A stretch of DNA of 64,000 nucleotides from contig JAGDWI010000001.1 of the NCBI GenBank assembly GCA_023269825.1, positions 554,492-618,491 on the forward strand, in the 5' to 3' direction. Under the pieces are notes generated by a model. The model made no database searches. It saw only the letters and a program-made list of their open reading frames with translations, and was not told the DNA's origin. The number at the start of each line of letters is the position of its first letter. Position 1 is the stretch's first letter. Made by a program: the position numbers and the translations under genes. The DNA comes from Desulfurococcaceae archaeon. Its GTDB lineage: Archaea > Thermoproteota > Thermoprotei_A > Sulfolobales > Desulfurococcaceae. Shown here one piece after another: positions 2,380 through 12,988 of this stretch.

Positions 2380-4200
2380 TTGAATAGTGCCATGTATGAT
2401 ATAGTGTACGGGCGCAGAGACCTACGAGTACATGTCCCCTTATCTAGTTGCACCTTGGCTGCGGGTTCTCGAGAAGTATATAAAGCCGTGGAGGATTTCA
2501 TTAATAGAAAAGGTATAAATGCGGAGGTACACCGAGTTGGTTGCACGGGTTTATGTTACCTTGATCCATGGATAATGGTTGCTGGGAGGGGTTTACCAGC
2601 AGCTATATATGTAAACGTTAGACACGTTGACGTCGAAAAGATCTTAGCAAGGTACTTGAACCGTGATTTCACTGGTGCTTATGCTCTTAGATTCAAAGAA
2701 GGCAACGTAGATTACGGTGTACCATTACTAGATGAGAAACCCGAGTGGAGGAACCAAGTGAGGTGGGTTTCAAGAAACTGCGGGTTAGTTGACCCTGAAT
2801 CCATTGATGAATACATTATGACGGGTGGGTATGAAGGCCTTAGAAAAGCGCTGAGAATGAAACGCGAAGAAGTAATTGAGACAGTGAAGAAATCTGGTTT
2901 AAGAGGTAGGGGAGGAGCAGGTTTCCCTACTTGGTTAAAGTGGAAGATAACTTACGAGCAGAGAAGCGATGAGAAATACGTTATATGTAACGGAGACGAA
3001 GGAGACCCAGGAGCATTCATGAACAGACTTCTAGCTGAATCCGACCCACATAGAGTAATAGAGGGGTTGATAATAGCTGGTTACGCTGTGGGAGCAACTA
3101 AGGGCTATGTCTTCGTTAGAGCCGAGAAACCATTAATGGCTGATAGATTGGAGAAAGCTGTTATTGAAGCAAGAGAACGAGGATTCCTGGGAGAAAACAT
3201 ACTGGGTTCAGGGTTCAGCTTCGACATAGAGGTGTATAGGAGCGCTGGAGCATTCGTGTGCGGTGAGGAAACAGCGTTAATAGCCGCTATCGAGGGTAGA
3301 GCTAGGCCTCGTCAGCGACCACCATACCCTGCAACCAGTGGATTATGGGGTAAACCAACTGTTGTAAACAACGTTGAGACACTAGCACACGTAGCCACAA
3401 TATTCCAGTTTGGAGTAGATGAGTTCACGAAGTATGGAACAGAGAAATCTAAGGGAACAAAAATGTTCTGCGTAACAGGTGCTGTGAAGAGAACAGGAGT
3501 CTACGAGGTACCAATAGGAACAACGATTAAGAAACTGGTATACGAGCTAGCTGGTGGCCCTGTTGAAGGAAAGAAAATAAAAGCAGTCCAAGTGGGAGGC
3601 CCGAGCGGTGGATGCATACCCTCCAACTTATTCGACTTAGAATTAGACTATGAGACTCTTCAATCATATGGAGCTATAATGGGGTCAGGTGGACTCGTAG
3701 TTATTGATGACTCAGGCTGCATGGTTAACGTTGCTAAATACTTCACCGACTTCACTCTAGCTGAATCCTGCGGGAAATGCTTACCTTGCAGAGTTGGAAT
3801 GAAAATAATGAATGAGACATTGGAGAGAATAGTGAACGGTGAGGGTAGAGAAGAAGACCTTGAAATACTGCGAGACCTAGGTGTAACAGTTATCAAGACT
3901 AGTCTCTGCGGCCTAGGAGGCTCTGCACCAAACCCTGTTCTATCTACTCTCAGGTACTTTGAGAACGAGTATAGGGAACACGTTGAAAACAAGAAGTGCC
4001 CAGCTAAAGTATGCCCCAAGCTTGTTACATACGTGATAAATGAGGAGAAATGCCGTGGATGCGGTGTTTGCGCGAAATATTGTCCAGTCAACGCGATAAC
4101 GGGTGTACCCGGTAAACCCTTCACGATTGACTCCTCAAAGTGCATAAAGTGTGGTTCATGCCTCGTTAATTGCCCGTTCGGCGCAGTTGAGAAAGCATAG
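2380..4200 (+). CDS. NuoF-like NAD(H)-binding FMN/Fe-S subunit (HydB/HndC type)
   Basis: This 606-residue protein has three parts. An N-terminal thioredoxin-like domain carries C24, C55 and C59 (only three obvious ligands). The central NuoF domain has the FMN/NADH motifs GRGGAGFPTW (176-185) and NGDEGDPGAF (204-213), and an N3-type [4Fe-4S] site made of C464, C467, C470 and C510. The C-terminal 2[4Fe-4S] ferredoxin has CRGCGVCAKYCP near 558 and CIKCGSCLVNCP near 588. This layout is that of the NAD(H)-reactive subunit of multimeric [FeFe] hydrogenases and related bifurcating complexes. The start is TTG 2380, nine bases after GAGG. The next reading frame begins immediately after its stop, so the proteins are made together. 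Confidence 0.93.
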   Translation: MNSAMYDIVYGRRDLRVHVPLSSCTLAAGSREVYKAVEDFINRKGINAEVHRVGCTGLCYLDPWIMVAGRGLPAAIYVNVRHVDVEKILARYLNRDFTGAYALRFKEGNVDYGVPLLDEKPEWRNQVRWVSRNCGLVDPESIDEYIMTGGYEGLRKALRMKREEVIETVKKSGLRGRGGAGFPTWLKWKITYEQRSDEKYVICNGDEGDPGAFMNRLLAESDPHRVIEGLIIAGYAVGATKGYVFVRAEKPLMADRLEKAVIEARERGFLGENILGSGFSFDIEVYRSAGAFVCGEETALIAAIEGRARPRQRPPYPATSGLWGKPTVVNNVETLAHVATIFQFGVDEFTKYGTEKSKGTKMFCVTGAVKRTGVYEVPIGTTIKKLVYELAGGPVEGKKIKAVQVGGPSGGCIPSNLFDLELDYETLQSYGAIMGSGGLVVIDDSGCMVNVAKYFTDFTLAESCGKCLPCRVGMKIMNETLERIVNGEGREEDLEILRDLGVTVIKTSLCGLGGSAPNPVLSTLRYFENEYREHVENKKCPAKVCPKLVTYVINEEKCRGCGVCAKYCPVNAITGVPGKPFTIDSSKCIKCGSCLVNCPFGAVEKA

Positions 4201-4209
4201 GTGAATTAC

Positions 4210-4857
4210 ATGGTTAAAGTTAAAGTAAACAATGTTGAAGTAGAAGTACCACAGGAAGCATACATCATTGACGCAGTTGAGAAAGCTGGTTTCAGGGTTC
4301 CATTACTATGCTATCTACAAGGCTTATTCAATGAGGCAACATGCAGAGTATGCGTTGTTAAAGCCAATGGTAGAGTTGTACCAGCGTGCAGGTTCCCTGT
4401 TCAAGAAGGAATGAACATTGTTACAAGCGATGATGAACTAGAGAAAATGAGGAAGATAAACTTCGAGCTACTACTAGCTACTCATAACATACACTGCTGG
4501 GACTGCTATAGGAAAAGCACATGCACGTTGAGCACGCTCTCAAGAGAACTAGGAGTTGAAGGTATCCCAGTTTGCTCAGAGTGCCCACTATACGGTGAAG
4601 AATGCTTAGTCAAACAAGGTATTCCATGCCTCGGGCCCCTCACAGTTGCAGGCTGCGATGCTGAGTGCACGAGGCAGAGCGCTCCCTGCATTGGGTGCAG
4701 AGGATTTACATCTAGCATAGATGTCTGGAGAAACGCGATCAAATACTACAGAGATAACGGTATTAGTAGGGAGCACCTTGAATCAGCCCTATCTATTTTC
4801 TGGGTAGTAATCCCGGTTAAACTACGAGAAATAATCAACGAGGTGTATAAACAATGA
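4210..4857 (+). CDS. HoxU/NuoG-like ferredoxin fused to the C-terminal half of a [NiFe]-hydrogenase small subunit
   Basis: A protein of about 215 residues. Residues 1-75 form a [2Fe-2S] domain (C34, C45, C48, C60), followed by the NuoG/HoxU His-Cys [4Fe-4S] site H92, C96, C99, C105. The remainder carries eight cysteines (C122, C125, C132, C140, C149, C153, C160, C163) in the order CxxC, x6, C, then CLGPLTVAGC and PCIGCRG. That is the C-terminal two-cluster region of group 3 [NiFe]-hydrogenase small subunits. The active-site-proximal half of that subunit is missing here and lies two genes downstream. The start is ATG 4210, five bases after AGGTGA; GTG 4201 is the alternative. The next gene overlaps the stop by 4 bp. 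Confidence 0.85.
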   Translation: MVKVKVNNVEVEVPQEAYIIDAVEKAGFRVPLLCYLQGLFNEATCRVCVVKANGRVVPACRFPVQEGMNIVTSDDELEKMRKINFELLLATHNIHCWDCYRKSTCTLSTLSRELGVEGIPVCSECPLYGEECLVKQGIPCLGPLTVAGCDAECTRQSAPCIGCRGFTSSIDVWRNAIKYYRDNGISREHLESALSIFWVVIPVKLREIINEVYKQ

Positions 4858-6098
4858 CTAATTCACGCCTAGAACTAGAACTAGATAGAGTAGCTGGTGA
4901 ATCCAAAGTTAACGTGTACTTAATTAACGGTGAAGTACGCGTAGAGTACGCTAGTCAACTAAGTGAAAGAATGTTCGAGCGCTTAGTTACTGGACGAGAC
5001 TACCGGTACGCACCATACATAGCTGCGAGAATCTGCGGTGTATGTAGTCATGCCCACTTCTGGGCATCTAACCTCGCCATTGAGAACGCTCTTGGAATAG
5101 AAGTAGATGAAGTAACAGCTATACTTAGAGATGTTTGTAATAAGCTGCAAATAGTTGAAAACCACTTAGTCTATTTAATATTCCTGGCTTTACCGGATTA
5201 CCGTGAACTCGAAGCAGGCATTGTGACTAAAGCGATAAGAGCGAGAGAGAACATTAAAAACTCCTTGAACACGTTGTGCGGGAGGCTCTCTGGTCCACAA
5301 CCATACATGCCCGGCGGATTCATCAAGGAGATATCGCTGCAACACGTTGAGAAAACAATTAAATTAATGGAGGAATCAGTGCCCTTAGTAGAGGAGATCC
5401 TGGAATACGTGTTGAGCAAGGTTAATTCACCGAGTATGAGCGACCCTTCACCAGTGTACTTAGCTCTCTCAACGTTCCCGGAGAGAAGTGTTCCCTCGAA
5501 GGGACCATATATACTGGTGAGTAGTGGAGAATACTTCACAATAAACGAGGATAATTACTTAAACTACTTCAATGAGGTTAAATCAAGTTACTCCAATAGT
5601 AAAGCCTGCACTTTCAACGGGAAAACATTCTTCGTTGGAGCGAGAGCCAGGCTCCTCGCAAACAAGTATGTGGAGTTAAACTCGGAGCTACTGGAGGTAC
5701 TCCGCTGTAACCCCTACAGTAACATAGTTGCTAAAGCTATTGAGAGCCGCTACCTACTACGAGACATCGTATACAAGTTGAGGAGCATAAGTGGCAAGCA
5801 ACCTAGGAGGACTCCACCGAGTAGGAAACAAGGTAAAGGATTATCAGTTATTGAGGCACCGAGAGGACTACTAATACACTTCTATGAGTTAGATGAGAAT
5901 AGTAGAATTAAGTCAGCTAACATAATTACACCAACAGTCATGTTCACTAAGCACGTCGAGGCCTCCGCTGAAGCCTTGATAAAGCAACTATATAGTGAGA
6001 AAAACGAGGAGAATACTTTCACGAAGTATGTTGAAATGCTCGTTAGATCCTATGATCCCTGTATTCCATGCGCTGTTCACGTTGTGAAAGTACCTTAG
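4854..6098 (+). CDS. [NiFe]-hydrogenase large (catalytic) subunit, compact form
   Basis: A 414-residue large subunit. All four Ni-Fe ligands are present: RICGVCSHAH gives C61 and C64, and DPCIPCAVH gives C403 and C406. The conserved APRGLLIH segment with its arginine is also present. Two features are unusual. The N-terminal motif that normally reads R-x-E-G reads RVAGE, so the glutamate often assigned to proton transfer appears replaced. The chain also ends only five residues after the terminal histidine, so there is no obvious C-terminal extension for a maturation protease to cut. It sits between the two genes that carry the split small subunit. The Ni-Fe site should bind H2 or protons in the cytoplasm. 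The family call is firm; activity is not proven. Confidence 0.9.
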   Translation: MTNSRLELELDRVAGESKVNVYLINGEVRVEYASQLSERMFERLVTGRDYRYAPYIAARICGVCSHAHFWASNLAIENALGIEVDEVTAILRDVCNKLQIVENHLVYLIFLALPDYRELEAGIVTKAIRARENIKNSLNTLCGRLSGPQPYMPGGFIKEISLQHVEKTIKLMEESVPLVEEILEYVLSKVNSPSMSDPSPVYLALSTFPERSVPSKGPYILVSSGEYFTINEDNYLNYFNEVKSSYSNSKACTFNGKTFFVGARARLLANKYVELNSELLEVLRCNPYSNIVAKAIESRYLLRDIVYKLRSISGKQPRRTPPSRKQGKGLSVIEAPRGLLIHFYELDENSRIKSANIITPTVMFTKHVEASAEALIKQLYSEKNEENTFTKYVEMLVRSYDPCIPCAVHVVKVP

Positions 6099-6107
6099 GT
6101 GATCGAA

Positions 6108-7409
6108 ATGAAAGTAGCATTCATATCTCTAACTGGTTGCGAAGGATGCTTGTACAATGTAATCAACGAGGATTTATTCAATCTACTTGAAAAGTATAAC
6201 GCTGAGTTAGTTGATTGGCGCTTACTCGGAATTAGGAAAAGCAATGAATACGATGTAGCAGTAGTTGAGGGATCAGTTGTTAGTGATGAGAACGCTGAGC
6301 GACTCAAGTTGATCAGGGAGAAATCAAAGGTTTTAATTGCTTTAGGTGCATGTGCAACACTTGGCGGCGTACAAGCAGGTTTATACGGTGAAAACAATAA
6401 ACCAAGGTCTACTCCGCTACACCAGCACGTTAAAGTAGACTACTTCGTTCGTGGATGCCCTGTTAAAACAAGCGAGTTCCTCAGCCTACTTGAGCTCGTT
6501 TTAAAGGGTGTTAAACCAAGAGTCTACGAGAGAAGGTTCAACCTTGTTGAGAGACCTGTATTCAAAATAAGTGACAGGGATAACTTCCTGCAACTAGATT
6601 CCTCTAAGTGCATTGTTTGCGGTAGATGCATAGAAGTATGCAAGACGATGAAAGCAAGTGTTTTAAACTACGTGAACAGAGGCATAACAACACTGGTTTC
6701 AACACCATACCAGGATCCATTCGATAAAACCAACTGCCACTACTGTGGACTCTGCGTTGCGTATTGTCCAGCTGGCGCAGTCACGTATAAACTTGAGCCT
6801 GAGAGATTGAGAAGAAATAAGGGTGCTGAGATTTACATTGAGCCAGAGGCATTAGCATCGTTAGCGGAAGCTGAGAACCTGGATGTAGGCCAAGTATTCG
6901 CTGCACTTCGTTTACTTGGATACAGTAGGATCATAGTTTACTCTAACACAACGCATGTTCAACCAGGTAGAATCTACGCTAAATCCCCAGTCGAGTACCA
7001 GATATTGAGGAGAACTTATCCAAACCTAAGCGTGGAGCTCTTAGTTCCGAGAATACCGATTAATGCTATTTATGTTACTCAGTGCACTGCTTGGAGGAAG
7101 CAGTTGGGGAACTCTGTTACAACAAGAGAGCTTCAACTACTGATCAGGAGTATTCCGCGGGATATACTCGAGGAGGAACGCGAAAACCAGTTATCAGTTA
7201 ACCTAGATTCAAGTGTACACGTAGTCAGCGATTTACGTGAAGTAGAGAAAGCAATGAATAAAGAGCTGGATCACGCAGTAGTATACTCGGCTTGCCCAGG
7301 GGGATGCTTAATGGGTGGAGGTCAACCATTATCACTCGGAGACAACGCATTACACGCTGTATATGAGAGGAGGGCCGAGATCTTAAACAAGTATTTACGT
7401 AGTAGATAA
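6108..7409 (+). CDS. Hybrid protein: [NiFe] small-subunit N-domain + HydA-like 2[4Fe-4S] and H-cluster-type domain
   Basis: This 433-residue protein joins two hydrogenase families. Residues 1-135 match the N-terminal half of a [NiFe] small subunit, with proximal-cluster ligands in GCEGC (C11, C14), GAC (C82) and RGCP (C117). Residues 165-230 are the paired [4Fe-4S] domain of [FeFe] hydrogenases (CIVCGRCIEVC, CHYCGLCVAYCP). Residues 230-433 resemble the HydA catalytic domain, with QCTAW and VTTREL in the place of motif L2 and ACPGGCLMGGGQP for motif L3. Motif L1 (TSCCP) appears deleted and the usual L2 lysine reads W or R. Three of four H-cluster cysteines remain (C326, C396, C400). The start is ATG 6108, five bases after AGGTGA. 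It is the last gene of the operon. Confidence 0.85.
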   Translation: MKVAFISLTGCEGCLYNVINEDLFNLLEKYNAELVDWRLLGIRKSNEYDVAVVEGSVVSDENAERLKLIREKSKVLIALGACATLGGVQAGLYGENNKPRSTPLHQHVKVDYFVRGCPVKTSEFLSLLELVLKGVKPRVYERRFNLVERPVFKISDRDNFLQLDSSKCIVCGRCIEVCKTMKASVLNYVNRGITTLVSTPYQDPFDKTNCHYCGLCVAYCPAGAVTYKLEPERLRRNKGAEIYIEPEALASLAEAENLDVGQVFAALRLLGYSRIIVYSNTTHVQPGRIYAKSPVEYQILRRTYPNLSVELLVPRIPINAIYVTQCTAWRKQLGNSVTTRELQLLIRSIPRDILEEERENQLSVNLDSSVHVVSDLREVEKAMNKELDHAVVYSACPGGCLMGGGQPLSLGDNALHAVYERRAEILNKYLRSR

Positions 7410-7551: not shown

Positions 7552-8394
7552 GTGGAGGATTTGAGCGTTGAAGTAAGGAAAGTTATAAGAGTTGGTAAGC
7601 AGTCAAGCGCGATCGTTGTGCCTTCAACGTGGATGAAGCAACTGGGGTTAAACCCAGGTGACCAAGTTAAATTAATCTATGATGGAAACAGAGTAATCAT
7701 GACTCCTGTGAAGGAAAGCGAGTTGCTTAGAGGACAGATCATGGTGGAAGGCTCCGATAAAGTTGCTTTTACGAAGCTTAAAGCTGCTTTCATGGAGGGA
7801 ATAGTTAACATTAAGCTGAAAGCTGAGTACGAGGAAGCAGTAAAATTACTCACCGAGTTGAAGAAAGAAGTCCCCTCTGTTTTATTCGTGACTAGGCCTG
7901 ACGCTAAGTATCACACAGTTATTTTTCCAGATATTGGTGTAGAACACGGTGATCTCATTGCGAAATTGTGCGAAGTATTCAAGAAAATAGTTAGGCGAGA
8001 TGGAGAACTAAGTGTCCTCTTATCTGATTTCAAGTACACGCAATTACTGTTGATGAGGCTACTTAAGATCAAGTACTACGAGGATACCATAAATGTCCCA
8101 GAAGCACTAGACTTAGTGCTCTTCACTAACACTCTAAGCGAAATAGTGGATTCCATAGTTAACGGAGGCTTAGAGATAACTGAGGAAATAGAGGATGCTT
8201 TGTCAATACTGGTTGAACAGTATTGTAGCAGCGACTTAGATACAGCTGTTAAAATAGGAAGCAACACTATTGTTAAAGTAGATAAGTTCCCGCATGAAAT
8301 ACAGAAACATGTCTTAAACCTAGTTGAATTAATATTTAGACGCTGTATAAGAGATAAAGCGTGTAGATGCAGACACTTCTTCCCAAAGATCTGA
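7552..8394 (+). CDS. AbrB-type DNA-binding and PhoU-like domain regulator
   Basis: A 280-residue protein. Residues 1-50 form a SpoVT/AbrB swapped-hairpin DNA-binding domain (VGKQSSAIVVPSTWMKQLGL, then GDQVKLIYDG). The rest is helical and PhoU-like, as in archaeal AbrB-PhoU proteins often linked to phosphate or ion-transport control. The C-terminal tail is cysteine-rich (RRCIRDKACRCRHFF), which could bind a metal. The GTG start at 7552 lies about 30 bp after an AT-rich TATA-like stretch (7511-7523), so a leaderless message is possible; TTG 7561 is an alternative. It stands alone between the hydrogenase and lactate operons. Whether it controls either is inference from position only. Confidence 0.75.
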   Translation: MEDLSVEVRKVIRVGKQSSAIVVPSTWMKQLGLNPGDQVKLIYDGNRVIMTPVKESELLRGQIMVEGSDKVAFTKLKAAFMEGIVNIKLKAEYEEAVKLLTELKKEVPSVLFVTRPDAKYHTVIFPDIGVEHGDLIAKLCEVFKKIVRRDGELSVLLSDFKYTQLLLMRLLKIKYYEDTINVPEALDLVLFTNTLSEIVDSIVNGGLEITEEIEDALSILVEQYCSSDLDTAVKIGSNTIVKVDKFPHEIQKHVLNLVELIFRRCIRDKACRCRHFFPKI

Positions 8395-8526
8395 TTTCTC
8401 TATTCTAGAAACCACGTTACTGTAAGAAGCACACCTGTTTCACGGTAACCATAACTAGTGTTCCTGCGCGGACTGAATTAAGTTTTTAGACTACTAAGCT
8501 AATATAGTTAGTTGAGGCCGTGGTTC

Positions 8527-9336
8527 ATGAATATACTTGTTTTAATTAAACCTACTCCTGACATAACTAAAGTAAGATTTGATGTTGAGAAAGGAGTTGT
8601 TGACAGGGGTTCAGCTTCACTCGAGATAAATCCCTTCGACTTATACGCTATTGAGGTTGCTAAGAGAATTAAGAGAGTATTCGGGGGATTCATTACATCA
8701 TTATCCATGGCTCCTCCACACGCTGAACCAGCTTTAAGAGACGCTATAGCGAGAGGTGTTGATAGAGCCATACTGCTTAGTGATAGGAGGTTTGCTGGTG
8801 CAGATACTTGGGCTACATCTTACACGTTAGCTTCAGCTATAAGGAAACTAGGGTCATTTAACATTATACTATGCGGTGAGAAATCAGTTGACGGTGATAC
8901 CGCACACGTTGGCCCAGAGGTTGCTGAGTTCCTTGGGATACCTCACGTATCCTTCGTAACTAGGATCATTGATGTCTCAGTGGATAAAGTAATCGTTGAA
9001 TCCGATTTCGGTGAAGCATACTATGAAGTCGAATTAAAACTACCCGCTCTAATAGCTCTCTCAAGACCCGTTATATTCAGAGACGAGTTCATTGAACCAT
9101 CTATGCCTAAGGTAAGCGATGTCTTGAGAGCTAAGAAAGCGAAGATCGATGTCTGGAGCGCTGATCAACTCGCAGACGTAGCCGATGTAAGTAAGTTTGG
9201 TTTAAATGGTTCCCCAACGAGAGTTGTGAGAGCATACTATGCTCTCGAGAAAGGCAGAGAAACCAGGGTCGTTAAGGGAGAGGAAGGAGTAAACATGATA
9301 CTGAGTGTTCTGAGAGAAACAGGTGTTATTTCATGA
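8527..9336 (+). CDS. etfB: Electron-transfer flavoprotein beta subunit (bifurcating-type candidate)
   Basis: EtfB/FixA family, 269 residues, beginning MNILVLIKPTPD as usual for the family. The segment VDGDTAHVGPEVAEFLGIP resembles the DGDTAQVGP motif of Etf proteins that carry an extra FAD in place of AMP, which suggests flavin-based bifurcation. ATG 8527 is chosen because it lies nine bases after GAGG (8514-8517); a TTG at 8512 would overlap that motif. The downstream etfA start overlaps its stop by 4 bp (ATGA). It is the first gene of an etfB-etfA-lactate dehydrogenase-larA operon, the order of the Acetobacterium woodii Lct genes apart from the permease. Confidence 0.92.
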   Translation: MNILVLIKPTPDITKVRFDVEKGVVDRGSASLEINPFDLYAIEVAKRIKRVFGGFITSLSMAPPHAEPALRDAIARGVDRAILLSDRRFAGADTWATSYTLASAIRKLGSFNIILCGEKSVDGDTAHVGPEVAEFLGIPHVSFVTRIIDVSVDKVIVESDFGEAYYEVELKLPALIALSRPVIFRDEFIEPSMPKVSDVLRAKKAKIDVWSADQLADVADVSKFGLNGSPTRVVRAYYALEKGRETRVVKGEEGVNMILSVLRETGVIS

Positions 9337-10316
9337 ATTGGCGAGGAGTACTCGTCTACGCTGAAAACTACAGCGGGAGAATACACAGAGCATCCTTCGA
9401 GCTACTGGGTAAAGCAAGAGAACTACTACCCAGGATAAGCGGGGAATTATTCGCAGTAACTGTTACTAGTGAAAATAAAGCTGAAGAGTATTCAAGGGAG
9501 TTAATAGCATATGGAGCTGATAAAGTAGTTGAATACGTTGTTGAGGAAAATCATTTAACCAACCCATTAATACATAGAAATGCTTTAATCGACGCCATTA
9601 AGTACATTAAACCTAAACTAGTCCTTGTCCCAGCAACCCCGTGGGGTAGAAGTATTGCTCCACGAGTAGCTGCAAGTATTGGTACCGGTATCACAGCTGA
9701 TTGCTTAGATGTATATGTTGACGATGAAGGAAACATTGTTCAAGTGAGGCCCGCTTTCACGGGGAACATCATCGCGCACATAAAGACATTAACTAACCCG
9801 GTGATAACTACTGTTAGACCAGGTGTTTTCCAAGTACCCTCCCCGGATTATGGGAGAAAAGGAGAAGCGTTGATTAGATCAATTGAAGCAAGCGGCGCTG
9901 ATAAACTGAGAGTTCTAAGAGTTGCCAGGGTGAAAACAGTTAAGCTCTCTGAAGCAGATGTAATTGTCTCAATAGGTAAAGGAGTGAGAAGCAGAGAGGA
10001 CATTAAGTTATTCGAGGAACTCGCTAGGGAGATAGGGGCTCAATTAGCGTGCAGTAAACCCCTAGTCGACATGGGTTGGATGGAGAGAGATAGACAAGTA
10101 GGGTTCAGCGGTAACATCGTTAAACCAAGACTATACATAGCCTTGGGGATTTCAGGTGCACCACAACACATTGCTGGAATGAGGGACTCCAAGTACGTTG
10201 TCTCAGTGAACATTGATCCATCCGCGCCCATAGCGAAGTACAGTGATTTATTCGTGGTAGGAGACATCTACGATGTTGCTAAAAAAATATTACAAGCTTT
10301 AAGAAACTTAAAATAG
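9333..10316 (+). CDS. etfA: Electron-transfer flavoprotein alpha subunit
   Basis: EtfA/FixB family, 327 residues. The C-terminal FAD-binding half is clear: VGFSGNIVKPRLYIALGISG, then APQHIAGM and VNIDPSAPIAKYSDLFVVGD. The N-terminal half has the family strand VLVPATPWGRSIAPRVAA. Unlike LctC of Acetobacterium woodii, it lacks an added ferredoxin domain. It pairs with EtfB to move electrons between NAD(H), ferredoxin and the dehydrogenase encoded next. It is translationally coupled to etfB through a 4-bp overlap. The family is firm; bifurcation is an inference from EtfB and context. Confidence 0.93.
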   Translation: MNWRGVLVYAENYSGRIHRASFELLGKARELLPRISGELFAVTVTSENKAEEYSRELIAYGADKVVEYVVEENHLTNPLIHRNALIDAIKYIKPKLVLVPATPWGRSIAPRVAASIGTGITADCLDVYVDDEGNIVQVRPAFTGNIIAHIKTLTNPVITTVRPGVFQVPSPDYGRKGEALIRSIEASGADKLRVLRVARVKTVKLSEADVIVSIGKGVRSREDIKLFEELAREIGAQLACSKPLVDMGWMERDRQVGFSGNIVKPRLYIALGISGAPQHIAGMRDSKYVVSVNIDPSAPIAKYSDLFVVGDIYDVAKKILQALRNLK

Positions 10317-10325
10317 GTGGAATAC

Positions 10326-11714
10326 TTGGCTCTACCCATTTCTCTAATCAATGAACTCAAATCCACTGTGGGAGATCAATGGGTTATCATAGAGGAGAAA
10401 GCTGTTGAGAGATACTTATACGATGAAACAGCCTACGGAGTTAGACCACAACCAGTTAGAGACATTGTCGTAGTGAAACCTGGTTCAACCGAGGAAGTAT
10501 CCGAGGTACTAAAACTAGCAAATAAGTACAAGGCAAAAGTCTACATTAGAGGCGGTGGAACAGGGTTAGTTGGCGGAGCTATACCAACAAAACCAGGGAT
10601 TGTTCTATCACTGGAGAGAATGGATAAAGTACACGTGGATTCAGAGAACATGGTTGCAGAAGCCGAAGCAGGAGCAACTCTCGGGAAACTCATAGAAGAA
10701 GCTGAGAAACACAACTTAATGTTCCCAGCACACCCAGGCGATGAAGGCGCATTCATTGGGGGGTTAATAGCATGTAACGCCGGGGGCTCTAGAGCCGTTA
10801 AAACAGGAGTTATGAGGAACTATGTTCTAGGCTTAGAAGTAGTCCTCCCTACTGGTGAAGTACTGAAACTCGGTGCTAAAACAATAAAGAACAACTTCGG
10901 ATACAACTTAGCCCACTTATTCGTAGGTAGTGAAGGAGTCCTAGGAGTAGTAACAAAAGCGTACTTGAGGCTATACCCGAAGTGGAGTTACACAGCAACA
11001 ATCGTAGTGCCATTCGATAGTAGAGTCAAAGCATTCAAGACAGCTAAGAAACTCTTGTTCTCTGGTTTAATACCACTAGCACTAGAATACTTTGATAGAA
11101 GAGTCATAGAAGCATCCGCGAAACACCTCGGGCTCCAATGGCCAATCATGGAGGGAGACTACTTCCTAATGGTGATACTAGCTGAGGCCTTAGAGGACGT
11201 TTTATTCTTGGAGTTAGAGTACGTGGATAAAGCAGCGAGAGAAGAGGGATCACTTGAACCCTTCGCCACTCAGAGAACAGATGAACAGAAAACACTGCTC
11301 AAAATTAGAAGTGAGATATTCACAGCTTTGAAGAAGGATACCTTCGACATCCTCGACACCACGGTTCCCTTAGGCAGCGTGGATAAATTCATTGAAGCAG
11401 TTATGGATATCGAGAGAAAGCATGGAGTATGGCTACCCGTCTACGGTCACGTAGGTGACGGAAACATCCATATACATGTATTAAATTACCAGGGTTACAC
11501 AAGGGAGCAGCTCATTGGAGTATCTGAGGAAATCTATGAAGCAGCCCTCAAGCTTGGAGGAGTAATAACAGGTGAACACGGCATTGGTTACATTAGGAGA
11601 AAGTACGTGAGGAGGCTTCTAGGCGATGTATGGGTAGAAACCATGAGGAAACTAAAGGGGATCTTAGACCCTAATAAAGTACTTAACCCGGATAAAGTAA
11701 TACCAGAAGAGTGA
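10326..11714 (+). CDS. FAD-dependent D-lactate/glycolate-type dehydrogenase (GlcD/LctD family)
   Basis: About 462 residues with two domains. An N-terminal PCMH-type FAD-binding domain holds YIRGGGTGLVGGAIPTKPG and CNAGGSRAVKTG. A C-terminal FAD-linked oxidase domain holds VYGHVGDGNIHIHVL and GVITGEHGIGYIRRKYV. This is the GlcD/Dld/LctD family, which oxidises 2-hydroxy acids. With Etf genes directly upstream and lactate racemase directly downstream, D-lactate is the best substrate guess. The TTG start at 10326 follows AGGTGG with a 5-base spacer, the same spacing used by neighbouring genes; GTG 10317 is the alternative. Glycolate or another 2-hydroxy acid cannot be excluded. Confidence 0.88.
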   Translation: MALPISLINELKSTVGDQWVIIEEKAVERYLYDETAYGVRPQPVRDIVVVKPGSTEEVSEVLKLANKYKAKVYIRGGGTGLVGGAIPTKPGIVLSLERMDKVHVDSENMVAEAEAGATLGKLIEEAEKHNLMFPAHPGDEGAFIGGLIACNAGGSRAVKTGVMRNYVLGLEVVLPTGEVLKLGAKTIKNNFGYNLAHLFVGSEGVLGVVTKAYLRLYPKWSYTATIVVPFDSRVKAFKTAKKLLFSGLIPLALEYFDRRVIEASAKHLGLQWPIMEGDYFLMVILAEALEDVLFLELEYVDKAAREEGSLEPFATQRTDEQKTLLKIRSEIFTALKKDTFDILDTTVPLGSVDKFIEAVMDIERKHGVWLPVYGHVGDGNIHIHVLNYQGYTREQLIGVSEEIYEAALKLGGVITGEHGIGYIRRKYVRRLLGDVWVETMRKLKGILDPNKVLNPDKVIPEE

Positions 11715-11719
11715 ATTAA

Positions 11720-12988
11720 ATGAGAGTGCTCTTCCCATATGGGAGAAAATTCCTGGAGCTAGATTTACCTAGTGAAACCACTGTACTATACTCAGCAATC
11801 CCGAGAGGAAGAAGTGGAGCCGAAGCAGTGACCATGGCTGAGGAGAGCTTGAAGCAACCCATTGACTCTCCATCACTACGTGAATTAGCCATGGGTAAGC
11901 AGAGAGTAGTAGTATTAATCACTGATAAAACAAGAGCTACACCTAATAAGCTACTCCTCGAGGCTCTACTAAGCGAGCTGAGAGAAGCCGGCGTGAGGAG
12001 AGACAACGTTGAGATCGTTGTTGCAACAGGGCTCCATAAACCACACACTAGGAGGGAGATCGAGGAACTCGTAGGCGTTGAAATCGCTGATGAGTACAGT
12101 GTCTACAGCCATAACTCAGATGAATACGATTCAATGGTTTACCTGGGTAGAACAAGTCATGGTACAGAGATCTACGTTAATAAATCAGTTGTAAACGCTG
12201 ACTTAGTCATAGGCGTAGGCCTCATAGAACCACACTTATTCGCAGGGTATAGTGGTGGGAGAAAACTCATTTTACCAGGTGTTTCAGCTACTAAGACTGT
12301 ATACCAAAACCATGGCTACAAAATGCTCACACACCCGAAGGCAGACTACGGTTACCTCGAAGGCAACCCTGTACACGAAGACATGGTTGAAGCATCTAAA
12401 CTAGTTAAAAACTACAAGTTCATAATCCATGTACTGCTAGATAAGGAGAAGAAAGTGTTCTCAGTTGTATCCGGGGACCCGTACAGTGCACATGAGCAAG
12501 GCGTAAGAATACTAGATAAGTACGTGAAGGTGAGTGCACCCTTCGAAGCTGATTTAACAATAGTTACTAACGGTGGATACCCACTGGATAGAGATCTATA
12601 TCAAGCTGTTAAAGGAATGGTTACAGCTTCTAGAGTTACGAGGAGAAACGGCTACATAATAATGCTCTCAGAGTGCATTGACGGAGTTGGACACGAGTCC
12701 TTCAGAGAACTAGCATCAATAAGTAAAAACCCGGAGGAGATACTACGCTACATACGGGAAAACGAGCCTATTAGAGACCAGTGGGAAGCCCAGAAACTCG
12801 CTCAAGTATTATTGAAGAACAGAGTCATAGTTGTCACTAGGAACATTAAGCATGAAACACTCGAAGAAATGAACCTCACGCCTGCATCAACATTCGAGGA
12901 AGCATTTGAAACAGCTTGTAGGAGTATTTCATGTAGACACATAATAGCAATACCTGAAGGACCATACGTTATACCTGTTCCACCATGA
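11720..12988 (+). CDS. larA: Lactate racemase LarA (nickel-pincer enzyme family)
   Basis: A 422-residue LarA-family (DUF2088) protein. The residues that bind the nickel-pincer cofactor in Lactiplantibacillus LarA have counterparts at nearly the same positions: H106 in GLHKPH, K182 in YSGGRKLILPG (the lysine that carries the pincer nucleotide) and H198 in YQNHGY. It would interconvert L- and D-lactate and so feed the dehydrogenase encoded just upstream; only 5 bp separate the genes. The cofactor-building genes larB, larC and larE are not in this window, so cofactor supply must come from elsewhere. Other LarA homologues racemise different 2-hydroxy acids, but the operon favours lactate. Confidence 0.88.
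   Translation: MRVLFPYGRKFLELDLPSETTVLYSAIPRGRSGAEAVTMAEESLKQPIDSPSLRELAMGKQRVVVLITDKTRATPNKLLLEALLSELREAGVRRDNVEIVVATGLHKPHTRREIEELVGVEIADEYSVYSHNSDEYDSMVYLGRTSHGTEIYVNKSVVNADLVIGVGLIEPHLFAGYSGGRKLILPGVSATKTVYQNHGYKMLTHPKADYGYLEGNPVHEDMVEASKLVKNYKFIIHVLLDKEKKVFSVVSGDPYSAHEQGVRILDKYVKVSAPFEADLTIVTNGGYPLDRDLYQAVKGMVTASRVTRRNGYIIMLSECIDGVGHESFRELASISKNPEEILRYIRENEPIRDQWEAQKLAQVLLKNRVIVVTRNIKHETLEEMNLTPASTFEEAFETACRSISCRHIIAIPEGPYVIPVPP

Follow-up and report, generated by a model that had tools for sequence, protein, structure and literature searches.

Introduction

In the NiFe-HydABCSL complex of Acetomicrobium mobile (7t2r/7t30, Feng et al. 2022, PMC8880783), the C-terminal domain of HydA is devoid of the H-cluster motif and, as seen by cryo-EM, holds a [4Fe-4S] cluster, A5, in which a branch terminates (PMC8880783; PMC9304861). 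This cluster relays or buffers electrons and helps to hold the complex together (PMC8880783), and the path from the [NiFe] site runs along S1-A3-A2-A1-B1-FMN (PMC8880783; PMC9304861). The 64,000-nucleotide stretch of DNA from a heat-loving archaeon analysed here (the window) encodes a complex with the same elements, namely BfuABC, the [NiFe] subunits S and L, and a HydA C-terminal domain without the H-cluster motif. Nar1/NARFL, a eukaryotic hydrogenase-like Fe-S assembly protein, is a further H-domain relative; like the window protein it has no [2Fe] site, but it keeps four cubane cysteines and is not known to form part of a hydrogenase. Hybrid [FeFe]/[NiFe] hydrogenases reportedly occur in ten archaeal orders, according to the abstract of a 2024 report by Greening and co-workers. 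We file the window complex, in which [FeFe]-type and [NiFe]-type subunits are fused in one archaeal complex, as a presumed member of this kind (Cell 187:3357, doi 10.1016/j.cell.2024.05.032).

Our results indicate that the last gene of this complex probably carries a vestigial H-cluster domain within an archaeal hybrid, NAD/ferredoxin-linked and predicted bifurcating [NiFe]-hydrogenase, and that a plain Fe-S cluster in this domain would serve as a side-branch relay.

Operon organization and domain swap

The operon consists of five genes on the forward strand. The first encodes a thioredoxin-like [2Fe-2S] subunit of the BfuC/HydC type (1794-2321; PF01257, 3.5e-38), and the second a BfuB/HydB-type flavoprotein (2380-4200; E 1e-199 to 7t2r_B, the NiFe-HydB of A. 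mobile) with the FMN/NAD domain and, by ligand spacing, the B1, B3, B4 and B5 clusters. The third (4201-4857) fuses the N-terminal [2Fe-2S] and His-Cys3 part of HydA (NF040763, positions 1-121) to the C-terminal half of a [NiFe] small subunit (NF040836, positions 164-260), which carries two [4Fe-4S] clusters. The fourth (4854-6098) is the [NiFe]-hydrogenase large subunit, identified by domain matches and by its Ni-ligand motifs RICGVC (aa 59) and DPCIPC (aa 401). The fifth is the hybrid protein, an open reading frame of 436 amino acids with a GTG start (6099-7409). Residue numbers in the earlier note are lower by three, apparently because they were counted from the ATG at 6108.

The hybrid protein has three parts. 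Residues 4-141 (6108-6521) correspond to the N-terminal half of a group 3 [NiFe] small subunit, which bears the proximal cluster (Pfam Oxidored_q6, 1.6e-21; cluster cysteines C14/C17/C85/C120). Residues 160-235 (6576-6803) carry the two ferredoxin-like [4Fe-4S] clusters of HydA, A2 and A4 in the Bfu naming, on C171/174/177/181 and C213/216/219/223; all eight of these cysteines are invariant among 19 homologs. Residues 237-436 (6807-7406) form a degenerate H-cluster domain, that is the C-terminal domain of HydA.

The third and fifth genes, A' and S', are reciprocal domain-swap products of HydA and the [NiFe] small subunit. The organism's own intact delta subunit (253 aa, encoded just upstream of the window) matches the hybrid protein with residues 3-157 (36%) and the partner protein with residues 145-217 (44%). 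In the same way, the HydA of an unswapped relative (L140), which has C300 and lacks C299, aligns through residues 5-130 with the partner and through residues 139-211 and 455-508 with the hybrid protein, and the gene order there is C-B-A-S-L. The order C-B-A'-L-S' was found in all loci of the named collection that were long enough to show it, from Desulfurococcales, Sulfolobales, Pyrodictiaceae, Ignisphaera, Thermofilales, Wolframiiraptor and one MAG labelled Archaeoglobales. The distribution is patchy, with matches in two of eight genomes of the same genus at the threshold used, which counts against the reading proposed here. Just outside the window on its upstream side, and directly next to the hybrid operon, lies another [NiFe] operon, which is sulfhydrogenase-like and has its delta subunit unsplit (L141, 5339-9338; G000:C2:550338-554337).

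The arrangement thus differs from that of A. mobile, in which a separate full-length HydA accompanies a short one-cluster S, whereas in the window HydA and S have been split and recombined and the small subunit keeps its other two clusters.

The H-cluster-type domain

The structural model of the domain (AF2; pLDDT 93.6, pTM 0.89) had [FeFe]-hydrogenases exclusively as its top Foldseek matches, among them the HydA of T. kivui, CpI and CbA5H, with TM-scores of 0.59-0.70 on the query. When 29 hybrids were aligned, profile against profile, with 41 true HydA proteins (hhalign), the probability was 100 and the E value 4.5e-48. In this alignment the segment AKSPVEYQILRRTYP pairs without gaps with the L1 helix of HydA, SCCPAWV...YP. 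Both hhalign and an alignment in which hybrids and unswapped relatives were combined with HydA place A294-K295-S296-P297-V298-E299 (6978-6995; Ser296 at 6984-6986) on S-C299-C300-P301-A302-W303, so that C299 is replaced by Lys295, C300 by Ser296 and W303 by Glu299. The spacing agrees with this, as S296 lies 12 residues before P308, just as C300 lies before P312 in CpI. The register is fixed by the related hybrid L131 (G251), which reads IPCCYSAKKFVETYYP exactly at the L1-equivalent position.

The earlier note had held that motif L1 is missing from the domain. This stands insofar as there are no L1 cysteines, but the alignments and L131 lead us to conclude that the motif was substituted, with AKSPVE standing at SCCPAW. 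Accordingly, the alignment with HydA upheld the losses of the L1 cysteines and the L2 lysine and not the register in which the note had read them. The note's register, which amounts to equating AKSP with the S323-P motif that follows L1, has a literal likeness to AKSP in CpI but was rejected; it needs extra gaps, hhalign did not select it, and the sequence of L131 contradicts it. An error of frame or annotation that masks an L1 was likewise discarded, the frame being open and alignable across homologs.

The true deletions flank L1. About 18 columns are missing before it, corresponding to the helix with E279/E282, and about 19-22 after it, corresponding to S323-P-Q325. We take the roles of these residues in CpI to be the proton path for E279/E282 and the lining of the [2Fe] site for S323-P-Q325, with C299 in proton transfer and C300 as a cubane ligand. 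At the L2 equivalent, T327-Q-C329-T-A-W332-R-K-Q...VTTREL (7077-7106 for the first part; C329 at 7083-7085), the cysteine is kept and Trp332 stands at the position of K358, so the lysine is gone, as had been noticed before. L3 is intact (ACPGGCLMGGGQP, 7290-7328; C399 at 7293-7295, C403 at 7305-7307). The equivalents of C355, C499 and C503 are thus retained as C329, C399 and C403, and these are the only cysteines of the protein past the ferredoxin clusters, which bears out the earlier count of three remaining [4Fe-4S] ligands out of four.

Compared with group A HydA (CpI; HydABC of T. maritima and T. kivui), the window protein has the fold, the two ferredoxin clusters, the cysteine of L2 and the two of L3, but neither the TSCCP of L1 with its cysteine pair nor K358 in L2, the proton path and the CN-ligand loop are deleted, and HydE, HydF and HydG gave no family-level match in its own genome. 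Because these defining motifs and maturases were not found, we do not file it as an [FeFe]-hydrogenase, and annotators should be warned that such hybrid proteins should not be counted as archaeal [FeFe]-hydrogenases.

Conservation and the probable remaining cluster

The comparison covered 36 distinct archaeal hybrid homologs, which share 38% identity on average and fall into 27 clusters at 70% identity. All 36 have C329, C399, C403 and the G-x-G of L3. S296 and E299 are likewise fixed in 35 of them, and L131 alone departs at both positions. At the K358 position 22 proteins have R and 11 have W, and three Wolframiiraptor-type proteins retain the L2 lysine. Only 11 of 210 profile positions of the domain are invariant (29 homologs), and since S296, E299, C329, C399 and C403 are among them, the motif pattern is not due to chance.

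This conservation suggests that the domain still holds a cluster. It could be argued instead that the domain is clusterless and purely structural, a scaffold through which the [NiFe] module docks to BfuBC: the surroundings of the [2Fe] site have been lost altogether, the gene has decayed in some relatives, and the A4/A5 branch of A. mobile leads no further and could therefore be dispensable for turnover (PMC8880783). However, docking alone would require neither three cysteines that converge as in HydA nor their invariance, along with that of the L3 G-x-G, in 36 of 36 proteins of 38% mean identity, and we regard a mere scaffold as rather unlikely.

In the alignment Ser296 occupies the cubane-ligand position, and in the AF2 model it stands at the start of helix 297-306; the candidate fourth ligand in place of C300 is the invariant Ser296 (or Glu299). 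In this the protein departs from A. mobile, in which the fourth cubane cysteine is not a serine. Ligation of the fourth iron by Ser296 is a tentative proposal that we hold possible but less likely than not, as S296-x-x-E299 is also a classic helix N-capping box, which would explain the invariance without any metal. Ser296 may equally be a helix cap that leaves the iron site open, and with three cysteines the domain may hold a [3Fe-4S] or a labile cluster. The histidine in TTHVQ, put forward earlier as a nearby fourth ligand, is not conserved among homologs and was rejected as a cluster ligand. The domain lends itself to a defined mutational test of the fourth ligand required by the cubane of a former H-cluster.

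An open iron site invites another interpretation, according to which the three-cysteine cluster is a catalytic or ligand-binding centre, as a sensor or for a new reaction, and not a relay. Site-differentiated [4Fe-4S] clusters of other families are often catalytic, and the fourth ligand here is weak or absent. Against this, the domain has gained no added domain, the loci read show no substrate gene associated with the operon, and the pocket-forming L1 and post-L1 segments have been deleted rather than remodelled. Such a centre seems to us improbable, and nothing points towards the sensor role that the earlier note had allowed for.

Proposed evolutionary order

In the maximum-likelihood tree the hybrids with serine lie on one side of a branch with 98/98 support, and L131 branches between them and the group of HydA and unswapped proteins. 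The placement of L131 is consistent with loss of the [2Fe] pocket ahead of that of C300. The L131/L138 hybrid (G251) keeps Cys-Cys at the L1 position (IPCCYSA) and is likely an evolutionary intermediate between HydA-like proteins and the other hybrids. The unswapped archaeal HydA-like proteins L132-L134 keep C300, C355, C499 and C503, and of the cysteines have lost C299 alone. The unswapped archaeal relatives L139, L140 and L142 (from G216, G361 and G237) have a full-length HydA-like protein beside an intact [NiFe] small subunit; their L1 reads ACPA or ECPA, with C299 lost and C300 kept.

A stepwise route is thus visible by which a hydrogen-making catalytic domain was converted into part of another enzyme, from bacterial HydA with all four cubane cysteines and C299, through unswapped archaeal proteins that lack C299 only and one hybrid without the pocket in which Cys-Cys is still present, to the remaining hybrids with serine. 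It is conceivable, though we hold it unlikely, that the end point is a fixed Cys3Ser (or Cys3Glu) cubane across the hybrid clade, in which deletion of the [2Fe] pocket was followed by C300 to Ser and W303 to Glu, and the dead site was retuned into the relay of a [NiFe] bifurcating enzyme.

In some relatives the hybrid gene is interrupted by several stop codons (L027/L028 from G115, L130 from G210), and the complex is therefore being lost in some lineages. Three phylum-level matches (L135-L137) were not taken for hybrids, as they resemble, judged by eye, molybdopterin formate-dehydrogenase-type proteins.

Maturation and hydrogen activation

No match to HydG was obtained in 40 hybrid-type or related genomes (the window's own, 22 at order level and 17 at phylum level), a set that includes the genomes of the unswapped relatives (G216, G237, G361), that of a decayed hybrid gene (G210) and that of L131. 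In the window's own genome (96.6% complete; controls worked) HydE gave no match and HydF only generic GTPase matches below the cut-off. The genome search for hydE, hydF and hydG that had been proposed earlier thus returned no family-level match. Hidden maturases were considered and dismissed, there being no HydE or HydG, and HydF-type GTPase matches appearing in 14 of 14 controls as well.

The [NiFe] large subunit is intact, and the complex has the large-subunit motifs and proximal-cluster cysteines of group 3-type enzymes and, for Hyp maturation, HypD in the genome. The earlier note had suggested that the [NiFe] subunit would be the only catalytic centre. With the [2Fe] pocket and proton path stripped, HydE and HydG absent from the genome, and RICGVC/DPCIPC and HypD present, we agree that this domain is most probably no second H2 site. 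The overall HydA fold, the intact L3 and the two L1 cysteines kept in one relative, L131, might be taken to mean that a functional H-cluster is still present. The window protein, however, has lost the equivalents of C299, C300, K358, E279, E282, S323 and Q325, and HydG was found in none of the 40 genomes, L131's included, which makes a second H2 site extremely improbable.

Proposed electron route

We propose that the domain neither binds nor matures a [2Fe] subcluster any longer, and that it most likely still holds one [4Fe-4S] cluster on C329/C399/C403, the fourth iron being bound by Ser296 or solvent. By analogy with A5 of A. mobile NiFe-HydABCSL, this cluster would end the A4-A5 side branch and act as a redox relay, and we file the complex as one that presumably works like the A. 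mobile NiFe-Bfu enzyme. The electron relay that the earlier note had offered for a three-cysteine cluster is thus plausible. H2 would be activated at the [NiFe] site alone, from which electrons would pass to the proximal cluster in the hybrid protein, to the two small-subunit clusters and the His-Cys3 cluster of the partner, and onward by way of A2 and A1 to the FMN of BfuB.

As in the Bfu family of bifurcating enzymes (Schut et al. 2022), the complex has BfuC and a BfuB with the FMN/NAD domain, clusters B1-B5 and the histidine conserved at B2; the BfuB core is intact and close to BfuB proteins that bifurcate, and the complex may thus bifurcate electrons. BfuB retains four of five B2 ligands, His534 and three cysteines (His534-x5-Cys-x4-Cys, Cys447 and the other cluster motifs align with 7t2r_B). 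The fifth, C476 in A. mobile, is Val485 here and Thr in NfnB (9n5u_B); bifurcation is therefore not certain.

Downstream of the operon (8512-12988) lie genes for EtfB, EtfA, a GlcD-like FAD 2-hydroxyacid dehydrogenase and a LarA-type nickel racemase, which resemble an electron-confurcating lactate dehydrogenase/Etf module; such a module would have NADH and ferredoxin in common with the hydrogenase. Also downstream of the operon, a gene with an N-terminal AbrB/MazE-type DNA-binding domain (7552-8394) is a possible regulator.
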